Shown here in pieces: positions 26,143 through 46,210 of a DNA stretch of 64,000 bases. The first letter of the stretch is position 1; each line of letters begins with the position of its first letter. The DNA comes from Rhodoplanes serenus (GTDB taxonomy: Bacteria; Pseudomonadota; Alphaproteobacteria; Rhizobiales; Xanthobacteraceae), in contig WNKV01000014.1 in assembly GCA_009720755.1 (NCBI GenBank), positions 45,001 through 109,000 of the forward strand, in the 5' to 3' direction. The notes below the pieces were generated by a model. It was given only the letters and a program-made list of their open reading frames with translations. It ran no database searches and had not been told where the DNA came from. The position numbers and the translations under genes are program-made.

Positions 26143-29100
26143 GCTTTCCGCGGTTTCACCGCCGCGGCCTCATTGAAGCAACCATACCTAGAGCCGCAAT
26201 TGTAAAGATAAATAAACTGCTTTCCGCGGTTTCACCGCCGCGGCCTCATTGAAGCATCGATAGCAGCGACGCGATCCAGCCGAGGAACCCGCGCTTTCCG
26301 CGGTTTCACCGCCGCGGCCTCATTGAAGCAACGAGTCTGCGGGTAATGTCTACTAGTATTTTTACGCTTTCCGCGGTTTCACCGCCGCGGCCTCATTGAA
26401 GCGACACCATCGCCAGTAACGGTTATGGTGTCATTTTCGTGCTTTCCGCGGTTTCACCGCCGCGGCCTCATTGAAGCCCGATCCGGTGTTCCTCCAGACG
26501 GAGGAGGGGAACGGGACGCTTTCCGCGGTTTCACCGCCGCGGCCTCATTGAAGCATGCCCACACACCCTGGCCGGCTGATCGGGCGCCGCGCTTTCCGCG
26601 GTTTCACCGCCGCGGCCTCATTGAAGCTGCATAAGTCGAAAATCGGTTGTTAAGGTTAAGAAAGCTTTCCGCGGTTTCACCGCCGCGGCCTCATTGAAGC
26701 ACGACTACCGTCTGTACATCAACGCGAAAGGTACCGCGGCGCTTTCCGCGGTTTCACCGCCGCGGCCTCATTGAAGCCCGAGCACGGTCAATCGCTTCGT
26801 GCTCGGTACAGCCCTGCTTTCCGCGGTTTCACCGCCGCGGCCTCATTGAAGCTCGCAGGCATAGCCGGCCCTGCGCAGGACCTCAGCGCGCTTTCCGCGG
26901 TTTCACCGCCGCGGCCTCATTGAAGCACGTTAAGACCGATCTCAACCTTCTTGTCCTTGAGGCCGTGCTGCTTTCCGCGGTTTCACCGCCGCGGCCTCAT
27001 TGAAGCGCGAGCGACCGCGCAAATTTCGGGTGTGCCTCGTCGAGGCTTTCCGCGGTTTCACCGCCGCGGCCTCATTGAAGCAACAAAGTGAAATGGCGGT
27101 GCCGCAGCATGCGGGTCGCTTTCCGCGGTTTCACCGCCGCGGCCTCATTGAAGCGAAGATTAACATTAATCATTCGTTCGAATGATGTCTGCTTTCCGCG
27201 GTTTCACCGCCGCGGCCTCATTGAAGCTAGCAAACAAGCGGTTGACTGGACTAAGTGTACTTGCTTTCCGCGGTTTCACCGCCGCGGCCTCATTGAAGCA
27301 CGATCACGTGCCCGCGCAAGCTGATCAACCCCGCGACGCGCTTTCCGCGGTTTCACCGCCGCGGCCTCATTGAAGCCCGAAGCATTAACGTTAACGGCAA
27401 CAAGAGGCGTAGTACGCTTTCCGCGGTTTCACCGCCGCGGCCTCATTGAAGCTTCCATCGCCCCCCGTTCCGGGGCATGGAATCAGCGCTTTCCGCGGTT
27501 TCACCGCCGCGGCCTCATTGAAGCACGGAGGACACGCTGGCCATCGAGGCCAAGGGCAAGGACGCTTTCCGCGGTTTCACCGCCGCGGCCTCATTGAAGC
27601 TGCGGCAGGGGCTACCATCGGCCGCCGCCTCGATTGCCGCTTTCCGCGGTTTCACCGCCGCGGCCTCATTGAAGCACCATGCCGAACATCACACGTACCT
27701 CGCGCCGATCGTATGCTTTCCGCGGTTTCACCGCCGCGGCCTCATTGAAGCAGCTCGGCCGGCGTGAGCAGCGGCGCGGTGAACGTGCGCTTTCCGCGGT
27801 TTCACCGCCGCGGCCTCATTGAAGCGACCAAGGGTTTGGGCCGACGGTCATGTGGACAGGACCAGCTTTCCGCGGCTTCACCGCCGCGGCCTCATTGAAG
27901 CGCGCCCTGGATGCTGACGCCGGTACCGGCCGAAGAAAGCTTTCCGCGGTTTCACCGCCGCGGCCTCATTGAAGCTCGCTCTGAGACTGCACATAGTAGT
28001 CGCTGAACCGCTCCGCTTTCCGCGGTTTCACCGCCGCGGCCTCATTGAAGCCGTTCACCGGACCTATTTACCGAGCTATCGTGATGCAAGCTTTCCGCGG
28101 TTTCACCGCCGCGGCCTCATTGAAGCACCGGCTGGTTCAGCGCAGCGCCGTTCAACGCGATGCTTTCCGCGGTTTCACCGCCGCGGCCTCATTGAAGCCC
28201 GCTGAGGCGCGGATAGGGCTGCGGGTCTCCGTGAGCTTTCCGCGGTTTCACCGCCGCGGCCTCATTGAAGCGAGATCACGATCGACGCGAAGGCCGCACC
28301 GCCCGAGCTTTCCGCGGTTTCACCGCCGCGGCCTCATTGAAGCTCGATGCGCTGGTGGTGCCAGCCTGTGACGAACATAACTTTCCGCGGTTTCACCGCC
28401 GCGGCCTCATTGAAGCCGCTGCACCAGAACGCCTACCTCCTGAAGGTGCGGCAGGCTTTCCGCGGTTTCACCGCCGCGGCCTCATTGAAGCCCAAGGGGC
28501 GAAGGCCCGCGCCTGGGAGACCCGCGGGGTGCTTTCCGCGGTTTCACCGCCGCGGCCTCATTGAAGCGCAGAGGACCGCCAATCCTGGACGCTCTCGTGC
28601 CGGGCTTTCCGCGGTTTCACCGCCGCGGCCTCATTGAAGCATATCGGAAAAGCAATCACAGACGCCCTCGAACGACTGGCTTTCCGCGGTTTCACCGCCG
28701 CGGCCTCATTGAAGCCCGCAATCGCATCATCAACGGCCCGTGCAACATCAAGCTTTCCGCGGTTTCACCGCCGCGGCCTCATTGAAGCCAGACGATCGGC
28801 CGCGGACACGGCGAGATCGGGGATGCTTTCCGCGGTTTCACCGCCGCGGCCTCATTGAAGCCCGACCTCGACGCTCGTGTGGCGCGACGGCGCGAACTGG
28901 GCTTTCCGCGGTTTCACCGCCGTGGCCTCATTGAAGCCCGATCCGCATGATCCCCTTGGCGGGATCGTACTGGCGCTTTCCGCGGTTTCACCGCCGCGGC
29001 CTCATTGAAGCAGCATGCTGATCTTGACGTGCGTGGTGGCAACGTCGAGCTTTCCGCGGCCTCACCGCCGCGGACTCATTGAAGCGAGGATTAGTGGGAC

Positions 29101-34989: not shown

Positions 34990-35568
34990 TTAGCTGCCGC
35001 CGCCCGAGAACACGGCGCGCAGCTCGCGATCGGGACCGAGGTCCTCGATGCTCTCGATGGCCAAGAGCTCGGCGAGGCGCGTGCGGGCGCGGTTGACGCG
35101 GCTCTTGATGGTGCCGACCGCACAGCCGCAGATCTCGGCGGCCTCCTCGTACGAGAAGCCGGACGCGCCCACCAGCACCAGCGCCTCGCGCTGGTCCGGC
35201 GGCAGCTTGCCGAGCGCCTCGCGGAACTCCTCGAACTCGACCCGGCTCGCCTGCTCGGGCTGCGTCTTCATGCTGTCCGCATAAGCGCCGTCGGAATCCG
35301 GCACCTCGCGCCGCCGCTTGCGGTACTCGGAGCGGAACAGGTTGCGCAGGATGGTGAACAGCCACGCCGACATGTTGGTGCCGGGCTCGAACGAATCGAG
35401 ATTGGCCCAGGCCCGCAGCAGGGTCTCCTGCACCAGGTCGTCGGCGCGGTCCACATTGGCCGACAGCGAGATGGCGAAGGCGCGCAGGCTGGGGACGGCC
35501 GCCAGCATGGCCTCGCGAACGCTCGCGTCGTTGCGCGAGTCGGCCCGTCCGGACGGATCGCGGCTCAT
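34990..35568 (-). CDS. ecfG: General stress response sigma factor EcfG
   Basis: 192 residues, ECF sigma factor. Region 2 is recognisable in RADDLVQETLLRAWANLDSFEPGTNMSAWLFTILRN; region 4 in LPPDQREALVLVGASGFSYEEAAEICGCAVGTIKSRVNRAR. The match to alphaproteobacterial EcfG and the pairing with nepR and phyR define the role. EcfG directs RNA polymerase to GGAAC-N16/17-GTT promoters when NepR is titrated by phosphorylated PhyR. Its ATG overlaps the nepR stop (ATGA), so the two are translationally coupled. A promoter of its own class lies upstream of nepR, giving positive autoregulation. Confidence 0.96.
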   Translation of the reverse strand: MSRDPSGRADSRNDASVREAMLAAVPSLRAFAISLSANVDRADDLVQETLLRAWANLDSFEPGTNMSAWLFTILRNLFRSEYRKRRREVPDSDGAYADSMKTQPEQASRVEFEEFREALGKLPPDQREALVLVGASGFSYEEAAEICGCAVGTIKSRVNRARTRLAELLAIESIEDLGPDRELRAVFSGGGS

Positions 35569-35801
35569 TCGCTCGCGTCCTTGTCGACGCCTTCCGTGCG
35601 GACCACCTTGGTGTCCAGATTACGCAGGAGATCGGCGAAGCGATCGGGCACGCCCTGATCGACGATATCGTCGTAGACGGCCCGGAGCTGCTGTCCGATC
35701 TTGGTCTGAATCTCGCGGTTCAAGGCGGGGCCCGGTCTCGCCGGGCTCGGACGCACCTGAACCAATCCTTCGGGCCGCGACGACTTTCTTTCCTTCATCA
35801 T
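35565..35801 (-). CDS. nepR: Anti-sigma factor NepR
   Basis: 78 residues. The conserved two-helix core LNREIQTKIGQQLRAVYDDIVDQGVPDRFADLLRNLD is diagnostic of NepR, which holds EcfG in the uninduced state and is captured by phospho-PhyR. The flanking ends are disordered-looking (SSRPEGLVQVRPSPARPG; KVVRTEGVDKDASE). Two adjacent ATGs (35801 and 35798) are possible starts behind GAGG. It overlaps ecfG by four bases and is divergent from phyR across a shared regulatory region. Confidence 0.95.
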   Translation of the reverse strand: MMKERKSSRPEGLVQVRPSPARPGPALNREIQTKIGQQLRAVYDDIVDQGVPDRFADLLRNLDTKVVRTEGVDKDASE

Positions 35802-35860: not shown

Positions 35861-35919
35861 AACTCCGGAAACCTGTCATAGTTCCAGCCGAGGGAACCTT
35901 TATGTGATCACCGCGTTCC
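35861..35919. promoter_or_regulatory. Overlapping divergent EcfG-type promoters of nepR-ecfG and phyR
   Basis: Plus strand (toward phyR): GGAAC 35893-35897, 16 nt, CGTT 35914-35917. Minus strand (toward nepR): GGAAC at 35915-35919, 16 nt, GGTT at 35895-35898, occupying the same DNA. A second minus-strand box has GGAAC at 35881-35885, 16 nt, AGTT at 35861-35864. The spacing and sequence agree with the known EcfG consensus. Confidence 0.85.
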
Positions 35920-35964
35920 CCTCGGGCTCGTCCACGGGGTCACACACATTTGGGAGTTCCAGCT

Positions 35965-36768
35965 TTGTCGTCGGCGCAAATGGTTGCTCACCATCTTCCG
36001 TATCTGCGCCGGTATGCGCGCGCGCTCACCGGCAGCCAGTCGTCGGGAGACGCCTACGTCGCCGCCACCCTCGAGGCCATCGTCAAGGAGCCGTCGATTC
36101 TCGCCGACGCCGGCAAGCCCAAGGTGGCCCTGTTCCGCTGCTTCACGGCGATCTGGAACTCGTTGCCGGTCAACGGCTCCTCCGATCTGGTCGAGCCCGA
36201 CAGCCCGGCCGAGCGGCGCCTCGGCCAGCTCACGCCCAAGGCGCGGCAAGCCTTCCTGCTCGTCTCGCTCGAAGGCTTCTCGGAGGAGGACGCCGCCGGC
36301 ATCCTCGACGTCGATCTCTCCAAGATTCGCAGCCTCGTGGAAGAGGCCGGCCGCGAGCTCGCCGCCGAGATCGCCACCGATGTCCTCATCATCGAGGACG
36401 AGACCTTCATCGCCCTCGATCTCGAAGGGCTGGTGGAGAGCCTCGGCCATCGCGTGGTGGGCATCGCCCGCACCCACAGCGAGGCCGTGCAGATCGCCCA
36501 GAAGAAGCGGCCGGGCCTGATCCTCGCCGACATCCAGCTCGCCGACGGCAGCTCCGGGCTCGACGCCGTCAACGAGCTGCTCGACACCTTCGAGGTGCCG
36601 GTGATCTTCATCACCGCCTATCCCGAGCGCTTCCTCACCGGCCAGCGGCCGGAGCCGGCCTTCCTGATCGCCAAGCCGTTCCAGCCCGCCACCGTCTCGG
36701 CCGTGGTCAGCCAGGCGCTGTTCTTCGAGCGCAACGCCACCCGGCGTGAGCGCCGAATTCCAGCCTGA
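35965..36768 (+). CDS. phyR: Stress response regulator PhyR
   Basis: 267 residues from TTG 35965, the same length as Methylobacterium PhyR; GGGAG lies 8 nt upstream. TTG 35950 and ATG 35980 are alternatives. Residues 1-125 form the sigma-like domain (LPYLRRYARALTGSQSSGDAYVAATLEAIV; LTPKARQAFLLVSLEGFSEEDAAGIL), which mimics EcfG and binds NepR. Residues 140-255 form a receiver domain: acidic pair in IIEDE, phospho-acceptor Asp about 189 in ADIQL, Thr in FITAYP and Lys in AKPF. Phosphorylation, probably by the nearby HWE kinase, frees the sigma-like domain to take NepR off EcfG. Confidence 0.96.
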   Translation: MSSAQMVAHHLPYLRRYARALTGSQSSGDAYVAATLEAIVKEPSILADAGKPKVALFRCFTAIWNSLPVNGSSDLVEPDSPAERRLGQLTPKARQAFLLVSLEGFSEEDAAGILDVDLSKIRSLVEEAGRELAAEIATDVLIIEDETFIALDLEGLVESLGHRVVGIARTHSEAVQIAQKKRPGLILADIQLADGSSGLDAVNELLDTFEVPVIFITAYPERFLTGQRPEPAFLIAKPFQPATVSAVVSQALFFERNATRRERRIPA

Positions 36769-37041
36769 CGCCTCCCCGCGGCGACGCCGTCGCCGCGGGC
36801 TCCCACCCGCCCGCCGATCGCCAGGTCCCGCCGCGTCCGCCTCCTGCGCCGCTTCCCATCTCCCGCATGTCGTACCGTCTTGCCTTGGGGAGGACGGTCG
36901 CTCCGTGAGCCGAGGACGAGATGCGCCGTCGGCAGAGGCCGGCCCGACCGCCGGCCAGCGAGGCGCGACGAACCGGCCATCGCGAACACGGGGTGCGGGA
37001 TCTGGACAGAGATAAAGAGCGTGGAGCGCGAAAGGGCCCGG

Positions 37042-37128
37042 ACAGAGAAAAGGCGTGGTTGACGGAGTCAACCACGCCTTAAATGGCCGGCCGAGCACGG
37101 GGGGGGAGGGGGAATGGCGGCCGGTCAC
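37042..37128 (-). ncRNA. Candidate EcfG-dependent small RNA with C-rich loop
   Basis: On the minus strand a consensus EcfG promoter (GGAAC 37155-37159, 16 nt, GGTT 37135-37138) points left and predicts a start near 37128. The RNA would then form a 7-bp stem (37120-37126 region with 37087-37093) closing a 24-nt loop that contains C5-U-C8. A perfect 14-bp terminator hairpin (37050-37063 with 37067-37080) and UUUUCUCU follow. Length is about 85 nt. No reading frame of note is present. C-rich loops are used by stress sRNAs such as Caulobacter GsrN to pair with purine-rich ribosome sites. Start site and existence are inferred. Confidence 0.6.
37050..37080 (-). terminator. Perfect terminator hairpin in the GSR intergenic region
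   Basis: 14-bp perfect stem with a 3-nt loop, followed on the minus strand by TTTTCTCT and on the plus strand only by AAATGG. The orientation therefore favours termination of a minus-strand transcript, although no annotated minus gene lies upstream of it. Confidence 0.8.
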
Positions 37129-37134
37129 CAGGAC

Positions 37135-37283
37135 AACCGACCACCAGGACATTGGTTCCGGACATCTTGAAAAAATTTTGGACCCGAACTCGGCTCCCTC
37201 CGGGAGGCGCCGCGTCGGCGGCGTCTTCTCTGCGGCCGCGGCGCCCCGTGCGACAGAAACCATCGACGTCGTCACCGCGTTCC
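37135..37283 (-). promoter_or_regulatory. Two minus-strand EcfG-type boxes between phyR and the HWE kinase
   Basis: Proximal box: GGAAC 37155-37159, N16, GGTT 37135-37138. Distal box: GGAAC 37279-37283, N17, GGTT 37258-37261. Both point away from the kinase gene and toward the candidate sRNA. The rest of this 667-bp gap (36769-37435) shows no convincing gene, and I found no plus-strand EcfG box for the kinase. Confidence 0.65.
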
Positions 37284-37435: not shown

Positions 37436-39283
37436 ATGAGCGGCTTGGTCGCGTGGCTCGGCCTCGCGCCGGACGGCCTGACGGTCGCCGGACGCGCCGG
37501 CACCGACCTGTTGCGGCTCACCACCGAAGCCTTCATCGCCTTCAGCTTCTTCGGCATTTTGTTCGGGCTGGTGTGGGTCGCACGGCAGCGGGCCGATCTG
37601 CGGCGGGAGTACCGCGCCCTGGTCTGGGCCGGCGGCGGATTCCTGCTGGCCTCCGCCCTCGCCCACCTGCTCGGCGCCTTGTCGGCGGTGCTGCCCTGGG
37701 AGGGATTGTTCAATCTCGCCAACGCGGTGGTGGCGGTGCTCGCCTCCGCCACCGTGGTGCTGCTGCTGCCGCTCCTGCCGCAGCTCGCGCGCGCCCCCTC
37801 CACCGCCCAGCTCGCCCAGGCCAACGAGAGCCTGCGGCGCGAGGTCGCCGGCCACGAGGTGACGTTGCGCGAGCTGGAGACGGTGCAGCGCGAGCTGGAA
37901 ACCCGCGTGGTCGAACGCACCCGCGAGCTGTCGACCGTCACGGCGCGGCTGGAGACGGCATTGCGCGGAGCCTATGTGCATGCGTTCTCACAAGATCGTG
38001 ATCTCCGCTACACCTGGGTCTACGATCCCGGCGGCGATGGCGGCGACGGCATGGTGGGCCGCACCGACGAGGAGGTGTTCCCGCCGAGCGAGCGCGACGC
38101 CATCGTGGCGGTGAAGCGCCGGGTGCTGGAGACCGGGCAGTCGGAGACCTGCGAACTGCCGGTGGTCAGCCCGCGCGAGCGGGGGCTGTACGCCGTGCAC
38201 CTCGAGCCGGCCCGCGGTCTCGACGGCGCCATCGCGGGGCTGACCGGGGCCGCCATCGACATCTCGCGGCTGCGCTCGCTGGAGAGCGAGCAGCGCCGCC
38301 TCGCCGACGAGCTGCGCACCGTGCTGCAACGCTACGAGATCGCGCTGCGCGGCTCGCACATGACCCTGTTCACCCAGGACCGCGACCTGCGCTTCACCTC
38401 GATCAGCAATCCGCTGTTCGGGCGCGAGGTCGTCGACATCGTCGGCCGCACCGACACCGAGATCCTGCCGGCCGAGAGCGTCGCCCAGTTCGGCACCCTG
38501 GCACGGGCGGCGCTCGCCACCGGCAAGGCCCAGGGCGGCGAGGTCAGCGTCAAGCACGGCGATACCCGCTGGTACGAGCTGCATGTCGAGCCGCTGCTCG
38601 ATTCCGCCGGCGCCGTCATCGGGGTGGCCTGCGCGCTGTTCGACGTCACCGAGCGCAAGACCGGGGAGAGCCATCTGCGCCTCCTGATGCGCGAGCTGAC
38701 CCACCGCTCCAAGAACCTGCTCGCCGTGATCCAGGCGATGGCGCGCCAGACCGCCCGCCACTCCGGCAGCATCGAGTCGTTCCTGGATGCCTTCGGGGCG
38801 CGCCTCCAGGCGCTCGCCACCTCGCACGACCTGCTGGTCCAGGAGGGCTGGTACGGCGCCTCGCTCGGCGACCTGACCCGCCGTCAGCTCGCCAAGTATC
38901 TCGACGGCGCCGCCGCCCGCGTCTCGGTCGACGGGCCGCCCATCCACCTCAAGCCGGCCGCCGCCCAGAGCTACGGCCTCGCCCTGCACGAGCTCGCCGT
39001 CAACGCCGAGCGTTACGGCGCCCTCTCGGTGCCGGACGGACGGGTGGCGATCGCCTGGAGCCTGAAGCCGGCGGAGGCCGGCGGCGAGGAGGCGATCGAG
39101 ATCCTGTGGTCGGAGTCCGGCGGCCCCGACGTCGCCGCCCCCGAGAGCCGCGGCTTCGGCACCTTGGTGGTCGAGAAGAACCTGGCCCGCGCCCTCGACG
39201 CCGAGGTGGTGCTGAGCTTCGATCCGGGCGGTGTGCGCTGCCGCATGGTGATTCCGGCCTCGCATCTGCTGGCCGCCCGCTGA
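37436..39283 (+). CDS. HWE-family histidine kinase with membrane anchor and two PAS domains
   Basis: 615 residues. Three N-terminal helices (about 25-118) are followed by a coiled coil (125-175), two PAS-like domains (about 175-280 and 300-405, the second QDRDLRFTSISNPLFGREVVDIVGRTD), and an HWE kinase core. The phospho-acceptor His (about 423) lies in ELTHRSKNLLAVIQAMARQTAR. The N-box is HELAVNAERYGAL and the W-S-E of ILWSESGG gives the family its name. HWE and HisKA_2 kinases are the known PhyR kinases, and the position two genes from phyR supports that role. Start ATG 37436 is chosen; the frame is open upstream but runs through the sRNA region. Confidence 0.9.
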   Translation: MSGLVAWLGLAPDGLTVAGRAGTDLLRLTTEAFIAFSFFGILFGLVWVARQRADLRREYRALVWAGGGFLLASALAHLLGALSAVLPWEGLFNLANAVVAVLASATVVLLLPLLPQLARAPSTAQLAQANESLRREVAGHEVTLRELETVQRELETRVVERTRELSTVTARLETALRGAYVHAFSQDRDLRYTWVYDPGGDGGDGMVGRTDEEVFPPSERDAIVAVKRRVLETGQSETCELPVVSPRERGLYAVHLEPARGLDGAIAGLTGAAIDISRLRSLESEQRRLADELRTVLQRYEIALRGSHMTLFTQDRDLRFTSISNPLFGREVVDIVGRTDTEILPAESVAQFGTLARAALATGKAQGGEVSVKHGDTRWYELHVEPLLDSAGAVIGVACALFDVTERKTGESHLRLLMRELTHRSKNLLAVIQAMARQTARHSGSIESFLDAFGARLQALATSHDLLVQEGWYGASLGDLTRRQLAKYLDGAAARVSVDGPPIHLKPAAAQSYGLALHELAVNAERYGALSVPDGRVAIAWSLKPAEAGGEEAIEILWSESGGPDVAAPESRGFGTLVVEKNLARALDAEVVLSFDPGGVRCRMVIPASHLLAAR

Positions 39284-39358: not shown

Positions 39359-39383
39359 GGAACAAACTGATTAACAGACTGTT
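39359..39383 (+). promoter_or_regulatory. Candidate EcfG-type promoter
   Basis: GGAAC 39359-39363, 16 nt, TGTT 39380-39383, with the downstream gene starting at 39450. The first base of the minus-10 element is less usual than C or G. Confidence 0.5.
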
Positions 39384-39449: not shown

Positions 39450-40049
39450 ATGTGCAAGACCAAGATCTTGTCTGCCATGGGCGTTTCCGCGCTGGTCGCG
39501 TGGGCGGTCGTGACGATCGGAGGGGAGCCGGTGTTCGGCGGCACCGAGCGCGCCATGGCGGATCGCACCGCCTCGCTGGCCGCGCCGGTGGACCGCGCAC
39601 GGAAAAGTGATCGCCTGCCGGACGCCGCCACCGAGCGGCCCGAGGCCCGCGTCATCTCCACCGTCGAGGTGATCGGCATCCGCGACGCCGCCATCGTGTA
39701 TCGCGATCGCGACGGCCGCGTGCTGTATCGCAGCGATCCGCTGACCAACGCCACCGTCGTCACCAAGGGCGTGGTGCTGCCCGCCGTGACGGTGCGTGAG
39801 ACGCCGGCGAGCGCCGTGCGTCCGGTCGCCACCGACGCCATTCCGCCCAAGCCGGCGCTGCCCAACCAGCCGTCCGTCAACTCGCGCGACCTGCCGGCGA
39901 AGCCGGCGAGCGCCCCGGCCGGACGGCCGCGCATTCCGGAAGGCTGCGATCCCGCCGCGAGCCCGATCGCCTCGCCGCAGCTCTCGCACATCCTGAGCAA
40001 GTGCCTGGTCGAGGCGCCGACGCCGACCAAGCTCGCCGCCCTGATGTGA
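39450..40049 (+). CDS. Unknown exported protein, candidate GSR member
   Basis: 199 residues, not recognised. A hydrophobic N-terminal segment (ILSAMGVSALVAWAVVTIGG) suggests a signal peptide or anchor. The middle part holds VEVIGIRDAAIVYRDRDGRVLYRSDP, which looks like a small folded beta unit. A Pro/Ala-rich linker then leads to a C-terminal motif with two cysteines, PEGCDPAASPIASP and ILSKCLVEA, which could form a disulfide. It lies behind an EcfG-like box and ahead of a strong terminator, so it is a single-gene unit inside the stress cluster. Confidence 0.7.
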   Translation: MCKTKILSAMGVSALVAWAVVTIGGEPVFGGTERAMADRTASLAAPVDRARKSDRLPDAATERPEARVISTVEVIGIRDAAIVYRDRDGRVLYRSDPLTNATVVTKGVVLPAVTVRETPASAVRPVATDAIPPKPALPNQPSVNSRDLPAKPASAPAGRPRIPEGCDPAASPIASPQLSHILSKCLVEAPTPTKLAALM

Positions 40050-40560: not shown

Positions 40561-40585
40561 GGAACTCTTTCCCCGATTCGCGGTT
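40561..40585 (+). promoter_or_regulatory. EcfG-type promoter of the L,D-transpeptidase gene
   Basis: GGAAC 40561-40565, 16 nt, GGTT 40582-40585. The predicted start gives a leader of about 40 nt before ATG 40632. Confidence 0.7.
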
Positions 40586-40631
40586 GTAGATGCGGCAGTC
40601 GATCTGCCGGGGATATTTCGGGGAGGGTGAC

Positions 40632-41450
40632 ATGGCTCGCAGCGCGAAGCTTCATCTCGTCGTCGGCGCCGTTGCGGCGATGATCGCCGGCACGACGTTC
40701 ACCCCCGCCAAGGCCGACCCGCTCGCCCTGTTCGCACCGGACGGCTACCGCACCTCGCGCATCGACCCCTACATCAGCGACGAGCGCATCCGCCTCGACC
40801 AGGCGGACGAGACCCGCACGGTCACGCCGGCGCATCTGCGCCGCCAGGTCGTCGCCTATGGCGGTTCGGAAGCGCCCGGCACCATCGTGGTCGACACGCC
40901 CAACACCTATCTCTATCTGGTGCTCGGCGGCGGCAAGGCGATGCGCTACGGCATCGGCGTCGGTCGCGAGGGCTTCACCTGGTCGGGCGTCGAGCAGATC
41001 ACCCGGATGAGCGAGTGGCCGGACTGGACCCCGCCGTCCGAGATGCTCCAGCGCCAGCCCTATCTGCCGCGCTTCATGGCCGGCGGCCCGGGCAACCCGA
41101 TGGGCGCCCGCGCCATGTATCTCGGCAACACGGTCTATCGCATCCACGGCACCAACGATCCGTCGACCATCGGCAAGCGGGTGTCGTCCGGCTGCATCCG
41201 CCTCGCCAACGAGGACGTGATGGACCTCTATGCCCGGGTGAAGCCCGGCGCCACCGTGGTGGTTCTGCCGATGAACGGCCGCCGCACCGTGGGCGCGCCG
41301 TCGCGGCCCGCCGCCGCGAAGCCCACTGCCGCCAAGCCGGTCGCCGCCAAGCCGGTCGCAGCCCAGCCGGCGAGCCCGGCTCCGGCCATCGCTGTGCCGG
41401 CCACTCCGGCCCGCACCGCCGACAGCCTGACCGGCCCGCGCACCAACTGA
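40632..41450 (+). CDS. L,D-transpeptidase (YkuD family)
   Basis: 272 residues. A signal peptide (residues 1-30) is followed by a YkuD catalytic domain (about 85-215). The active-site segment HGTNDPSTIGKRVSSGCIRLANEDVMDLY has the conserved His and the nucleophilic Cys in S-S-G-C-I-R-L. The enzyme forms 3-3 cross-links in peptidoglycan or attaches proteins to it. The C-terminal 50 residues are Ala/Pro/Lys-rich. SD GGGAGGGTGA supports ATG 40632. The EcfG-type box upstream points to induction under general stress, which fits cell-wall reinforcement. Confidence 0.93.
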   Translation: MARSAKLHLVVGAVAAMIAGTTFTPAKADPLALFAPDGYRTSRIDPYISDERIRLDQADETRTVTPAHLRRQVVAYGGSEAPGTIVVDTPNTYLYLVLGGGKAMRYGIGVGREGFTWSGVEQITRMSEWPDWTPPSEMLQRQPYLPRFMAGGPGNPMGARAMYLGNTVYRIHGTNDPSTIGKRVSSGCIRLANEDVMDLYARVKPGATVVVLPMNGRRTVGAPSRPAAAKPTAAKPVAAKPVAAQPASPAPAIAVPATPARTADSLTGPRTN

Positions 41451-45910: not shown

Positions 45911-46003
45911 AAAAAAGGGGCCGCCACGAAGGCGGCCCGAAGTGTCAACAGGGAGGCGTCAAACAGAGTGGACAGGAGCCACTCGATGTCCACGAGGTGG
46001 ACG
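45911..46003 (-). ncRNA. Candidate small RNA with two loops and a strong terminator
   Basis: On the minus strand, after an AT-rich patch with a possible minus-10 TATTAC (46010-46015), come a 6-bp hairpin with loop CUC (45988-45993 with 45997-46002) and a second 6-bp hairpin with a CUCCU-containing loop (45966-45971 with 45979-45984). An unpaired stretch with GCCUCCC follows, then a perfect 8-bp terminator stem (45918-45925 with 45931-45938) and U6. Exposed CUCC motifs are usual in alphaproteobacterial sRNAs that pair with Shine-Dalgarno sites. The alternative is the 3' UTR of the DUF1192 gene. The rest of the gap 45780-46210 shows no gene. Confidence 0.5.
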
Positions 46004-46210
46004 TACACAGTAATATTCGGGAAAGCTTAACGAGCCCTTACCGGCGGGGCCGGCCGGCAGCCCGCGGCCCGCCCGGCGGCGCGGGCCAGACCGGCGCCGA
46101 GCGCAGGACGGATGGCGCCTCGAGCCCCGGTCGGGCGCATCGGCCTCGGGAAATTGGCCTTATGGGGGCATCGGTCCTGGCGGACGGCCGGGTCCGGGCC
46201 GGCGAGCCGG

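Follow-up and report, generated by a model that had tools for sequence, protein, structure and literature searches.

In the general stress response (GSR), phosphorylated PhyR captures the anti-sigma factor NepR and thereby frees the sigma factor EcfG, which is an established pathway. The PhyR-EcfG cascade reportedly affects symbiosis in Bradyrhizobium, a finding ascribed to Gourion et al. in 2009. The closest described small RNA (sRNA) to the element treated here is GsrN (ccna_R0081) of Caulobacter crescentus, which pairs with G-rich mRNA sites via a C-rich loop and has the katG leader as a known target (Tien et al. 2018, PMC5869019). In the passages of that paper used here, GsrN homologues are predicted in several Alphaproteobacteria and lie typically near ecfG, nepR, and phyR. 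For Rhodopseudomonas palustris and Bradyrhizobium diazoefficiens, the prediction used only proximity and an EcfG site, and gsrN of C. crescentus is located away from the GSR locus (PMC5869019).

The window, a 64,000-nt stretch of the Rhodoplanes serenus genome, carries genes identified by Pfam as EcfG, NepR, PhyR, and an HWE-type histidine kinase, and between the last two lies a candidate sRNA gene. It has in common with GsrN, as described in those passages, an EcfG/SigT-type promoter, a 5' C-tract loop, a 3' intrinsic terminator, and a link to the general stress response, and the two RNAs are about the same size (106 nt for GsrN, taken from a named deletion). Unlike C. crescentus gsrN, this sRNA is mostly found beside phyR, and the pairing with the katG leader that is known for GsrN was not found for it.

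The sequence-only reading had called the element undescribed. This is not supported, because the passages of PMC5869019 already predict gsrN homologues in the lineage and loci labelled R. palustris and B. diazoefficiens carry the element. It is most likely the same gene as these predicted homologues, with which it shares the lineage, a place beside the GSR locus, and an EcfG box; for them, the same passages give no sequence family or covariation. The kind of RNA is already known, and what is new here is the definition of the family and its synteny with phyR. What was in this lineage a prediction based only on proximity and a promoter box becomes a searchable, covariation-supported RNA family, and Rhodopseudomonas and Bradyrhizobium gain a defined candidate for a post-transcriptional arm of the general stress response. 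Within the excerpts returned by our literature search, no further paper on the element was found besides Tien et al., and the passages of PMC5082802 and PMC4842269 that were examined do not mention it.

The promoter, hairpin, and terminator unit

Table 1. Coordinates of the predicted sRNA gene and its neighbours in the window
Feature	Position	Strand	Basis
EcfG (general-stress sigma)-type promoter, GGAAC-N16-GGTT	37135..37159	-	sequence; GGAAC upstream of homologues
Predicted sRNA transcript, ~86 nt	37043..37128	-	start inferred from promoter, end from terminator; covariance-model match 37043-37135; 85 nt identical in 4 species
5' stem-loop of sRNA	37082..37129	-	fold; double changes in 9/10 pairs of helix 1
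Exposed C5-U-C8 tract in loop, presumed target-pairing region	37099..37112	-	unpaired in fold; C-run kept in homologues
14-bp Rho-independent terminator, U-run on minus strand only	37050..37080	-	scanner; double changes in 13/13 pairs of helix 2
phyR (sigma-like domains and receiver), conserved convergent neighbour	35980..36768	+	Pfam; linkage
Histidine kinase (ETR1_N, PAS_4, HWE_HK), neighbour in the genus and some others	37436..39283	+	Pfam
nepR, anti-sigma factor	35565..35801	-	Pfam NepR
ecfG, general-stress sigma factor, presumed sRNA activator	34990..35568	-	Pfam Sigma70_r2 and Sigma70_r4_2

The consensus EcfG promoter that had been claimed on the minus strand is present in exactly that form, as GGAAC CAATGTCCTGGTGGTC GGTT with a 16-nt spacer (Table 1). 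Folding of 37130-37038 gives a 5' stem with the C5-U-C8 tract unpaired and the 14-bp hairpin, which confirms the claimed stem with an exposed loop; the fold has a z of -5.07, and 0 of 200 dinucleotide shuffles are equally stable. A scanner's terminator call for this hairpin is confined to the minus strand, in line with the sequence-only reading, and the U-run is short (UUUUCUCU). The distance of about 30 nt given there between promoter and stem is right when counted from the start of the box but not from its end, where the stem follows ~6 nt on (its core ~11). As had also been said, no protein gene that accounts for a minus-strand terminator is evident in the ORF list.

Neither the box nor the terminator is rare on its own, and conservation is the deciding evidence. 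For the 4.5-kb region around the site, the scanner reports 3 terminator-like sites versus 1.6 expected, so the 14-bp hairpin alone is not significant. The pattern GGAAC-N16/17-GTT has 6 matches in the window versus 1.64 expected (1 of 100 shuffles gets to 6), four of them within 35861-37159 and the others at 39359 and 40561. Throughout the 5.5-Mb genome, 210 sites were counted versus 116 for the pattern read backwards.

The genome holds one copy of the sRNA, the next covariance-model match having an E of ~1. When compared with Rfam 15, the site gave no family above the gathering score (the best at a lax threshold had an E of 2.3 or more), and the same search with 20 homologue loci gave no family match above the gathering score. 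The known sRNA BjrC1505 (RF02356), found by Rfam at 45911-46048 on the minus strand with 100.5 bits, is also an sRNA of this lineage, but it belongs to a different Rfam family, lies ~9 kb away, and has no match at the site.

Conservation and covariation of the RNA

The element is a real conserved RNA. Its 85-nt core is identical in four species of the genus (genomes G000, G001, G002, and G004), whereas the 200-nt flanks in the 6 species pairs share 42-58% upstream and 17-41% downstream. The remaining genus genomes, G003 and G005, also carry the sRNA with small changes, for example in C-run length. A first covariance model, made from eight sequences, was used to search 149 genomes of the family and found a match in 74. 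A second model was rebuilt from 52 matches, and the same 149 genomes were searched again, which gave 103 matches in 91 genomes and 34 of 47 genera. A covariance-model search of relatives had been suggested by the sequence-only reading, which had staked its claim on the box, C-loop, and terminator being conserved in relatives that keep phyR next to the kinase; the claim was not refuted by conservation.

In 138 of the 149 genomes phyR was found, and 47 of these 138 have no sRNA match; phyR is only 49-53% identical in 15 of the 47. The model searches scored few candidates per genome under strict filters and lost weak matches, so some of the 47 missing matches may be false. Outside the family, weak matches were obtained from 15 genomes in a search of 199 genomes of the order and from 11 in a search of 240 genomes of the class. 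From both searches 23 loci were drawn (one of them, L094, from the own family), and among the 19 with full flanks that were examined only L092 was convincing, in which the GGAAC box is present and loop and stem are similar. This locus, from another family of the same order, is likely a homologue of the sRNA; no PhyR or EcfG match was found in its flanks. Another candidate, L091, lies directly behind phyR but has neither the box nor a C-rich loop; it was rejected and is probably the terminator of phyR itself. When the 240 class genomes, a set that possibly lacks Caulobacteraceae, were searched with model R2, no match was convincing.

GGAAC lies outside the covariance model. The motif precedes the model start by 20-26 nt in 52/52 model matches and in 64/64 loci collected with a Rhodopseudomonas-type PhyR, against a background of 2.7% in random stretches; the two sets overlap in some genomes, and 7 of the 52 are seeds selected because they have the box. 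The -10 element varies. Among the 52, CGTT occurs in 19 and no element was recognised in 17, and among the 64 loci AGTC is commonest (41/64), with none recognised in 3.

Covariation was analysed in alignments fitted to the covariance model. With 52 sequences, 91.2% of cells are paired, 22 of the 23 pairs have double changes, and 169 double-change cells are seen versus 50.3 when shuffled; if the partner is slid by 1-3 columns, pairing falls to 20.5-45.0%. The 64-locus alignment (47 distinct rows) is 81.0% paired and has 90 double-change cells versus 25.9 shuffled; in it, two of the model's terminator pairs are never seen, and for two outer pairs of helix 1 pairing is limited to 4 cells. The excess of G-U over A-C cells in the 52 set (73 versus 25) suggests that the RNA is the minus strand, and the counts in the 64-locus set (61 versus 54) say little on the strand.

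A loop C-run of at least 4 C is kept in all homologues (52/52 and 64/64). RNAs like that of the window often have CCCGUGCU at the loop end, exactly so in 19/52, and the shape found in Rhodopseudomonas and Bradyrhizobium has a CCC(Y)UGCCCC core (14/52 and 62/64) together with GGUGAUGCC in the terminator loop (14/52 and 61/64). In one genome (G178, L199:3161-3232), a second terminator hairpin, lacking the C-rich 5' domain, is located 1.5 kb from the full sRNA.

Convergence with phyR

The location between phyR and its kinase, as described by the sequence-only reading, is correct for this window but does not hold as a general rule, since the kinase is no conserved neighbour. One was found further along in 17 of 55 loci, for which a flank of 0.2-1.5 kb was covered, and in 0 of 64 loci, mostly of Rhodopseudomonas or Bradyrhizobium, for which the remainder of the 5 kb past phyR was covered. 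The conserved feature of the sRNA locus is its convergence with phyR. Among the 103 matches, 78 lie at most 5 kb from phyR, and all 78 are downstream of it and convergent with it, at a median distance of 229 nt. Seed genomes, picked beside phyR, account for 8 of these matches. None of the 78 overlaps phyR, and the distance ranges from 28 to 4966 nt. Seven further matches, on the contig of phyR and 8.3-25.5 kb off, are convergent too. In total, 25 of the 103 lie outside the 5 kb around phyR; 18 are on other contigs or far from it, several of these being marginal.

A match to the sRNA was found in 64 of the 80 phyR loci collected with a Rhodopseudomonas-type PhyR. In 10 Rhodopseudomonas loci the distance from the phyR match to the sRNA beyond it is 98-229 nt; in B. 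diazoefficiens SZCCT0423 it is 4.2 kb. One genome, G025, carries phyR at two loci, each accompanied by an sRNA copy. Another, G009, has seven copies of the sRNA (L016 and L192-L197) with the loop core CCCCC(C)CG, and GGAAC is found upstream of 6 of the 7. For the six extra copies, no PhyR or EcfG match was found in the surrounding 2.5-4.1 kb, and these copies favour action in trans, with the reservation that the assembly of G009 has 680 contigs and 4% contamination, so that mis-binning is possible.

Interpretation and neighbouring features

We consider it probable (about 0.8) that the element is a stand-alone trans-acting sRNA of the general stress response, ~86 nt long, transcribed by EcfG, and similar to GsrN. 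The box, the covarying structure, and the conservation argue for an sRNA gene of EcfG type whose loop is C-rich, as had been proposed. Transcription, EcfG dependence, loop pairing, and targets are features that we infer from the sequence, and the mode of action would be as in Caulobacter GsrN. Once phosphorylated PhyR has captured NepR, the freed sigma-EcfG would transcribe the sRNA from the minus strand, and a strong intrinsic terminator would end it. The 5' hairpin would expose the C-rich loop, which may pair with G-rich stretches in target mRNAs. A unit of promoter, hairpin, and terminator in which the C-rich loop is kept and the stems covary fits RNA pairing with G-rich mRNA sites, like that of GsrN. 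As a candidate target, the katG leader was rejected: pairing of the loop with positions -150 to +40 was no better than with mononucleotide shuffles in 5 of the 5 genus genomes scored, with the loop of R. serenus used for all (two genomes differ slightly) and the sixth, in which no katG start was found, left unscored.

A different origin would be that of an sRNA family of its own, unrelated by descent to GsrN and tied to phyR itself. As an EcfG output it would regulate mRNAs via the C-rich loop, its fixed convergence would make it a local feedback on phyR expression as well, and it would have expanded in one lineage to seven sibling copies; we regard this as rather unlikely. The convergence of all 78 near matches with phyR, shared by the seven at 8-26 kb on the same contig, and the retention of a copy at both phyR loci of G025 could also be read as signs of a cis element with no trans targets, whose convergent transcript and terminator insulate phyR or act at its 3' end as antisense or by collision. 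We find this improbable, as the near matches never reach into phyR (28-4966 nt away), the six extra copies in G009 have no PhyR or EcfG match in the stretch examined, the hairpin has no U-run on the phyR strand, and the C-rich loop and the dedicated promoter would be left unexplained.

The hairpins could further belong to the leader or the end of a protein gene, or the site could encode a small peptide. The only ORFs at the site are one of 677 aa that spans it and a minus-strand one of 122 aa that begins within the terminator hairpin, and they speak for this reading. We judge it very improbable: C-run lengths vary by single bases across species, so the sRNA is not coding; the 85 nt are identical at every base in four species, with no codon pattern; and promoter, hairpins, and terminator together span merely ~86 nt. 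A coincidence of a chance promoter and a chance hairpin might be suspected from the surplus of box-like sites in the genome and of terminator-like sites nearby, but it is effectively excluded by the conservation of the unit in relatives and its covariation, and the synteny also stands against it. The stand-alone, GsrN-like sRNA is therefore the reading that we retain.

The neighbourhood has several other features. In the kinase, PAS and HWE_HK domains are combined with an ETR1_N domain like that of ethylene receptors. A second box at 37256-37283, shared by four species of the genus and conserved among them, is readable in both directions, as GAAAC-N17-CGTT on the plus strand (a possible kinase promoter) and as GGAAC-N17-GGTT on the minus strand. 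Two EcfG-type boxes on the plus strand are located just upstream of ORFs: the one at 39359-39383 precedes a 199-aa ORF (39450-40049) without a Pfam match, and the one at 40561-40585 precedes a 286-aa ORF (40590-41450) that is L,D-transpeptidase-like by eye. These boxes and their ORFs possibly form a local GSR regulon. On the other side of the locus, a CRISPR array extends from 26518 to at least 29500, the end of the stretch searched. Between 26500 and 29500 it has 40 repeat copies, each ~37 nt long and spaced 72-80 nt, and an Rfam CRISPR-DR16 match at 27865 lies inside it.
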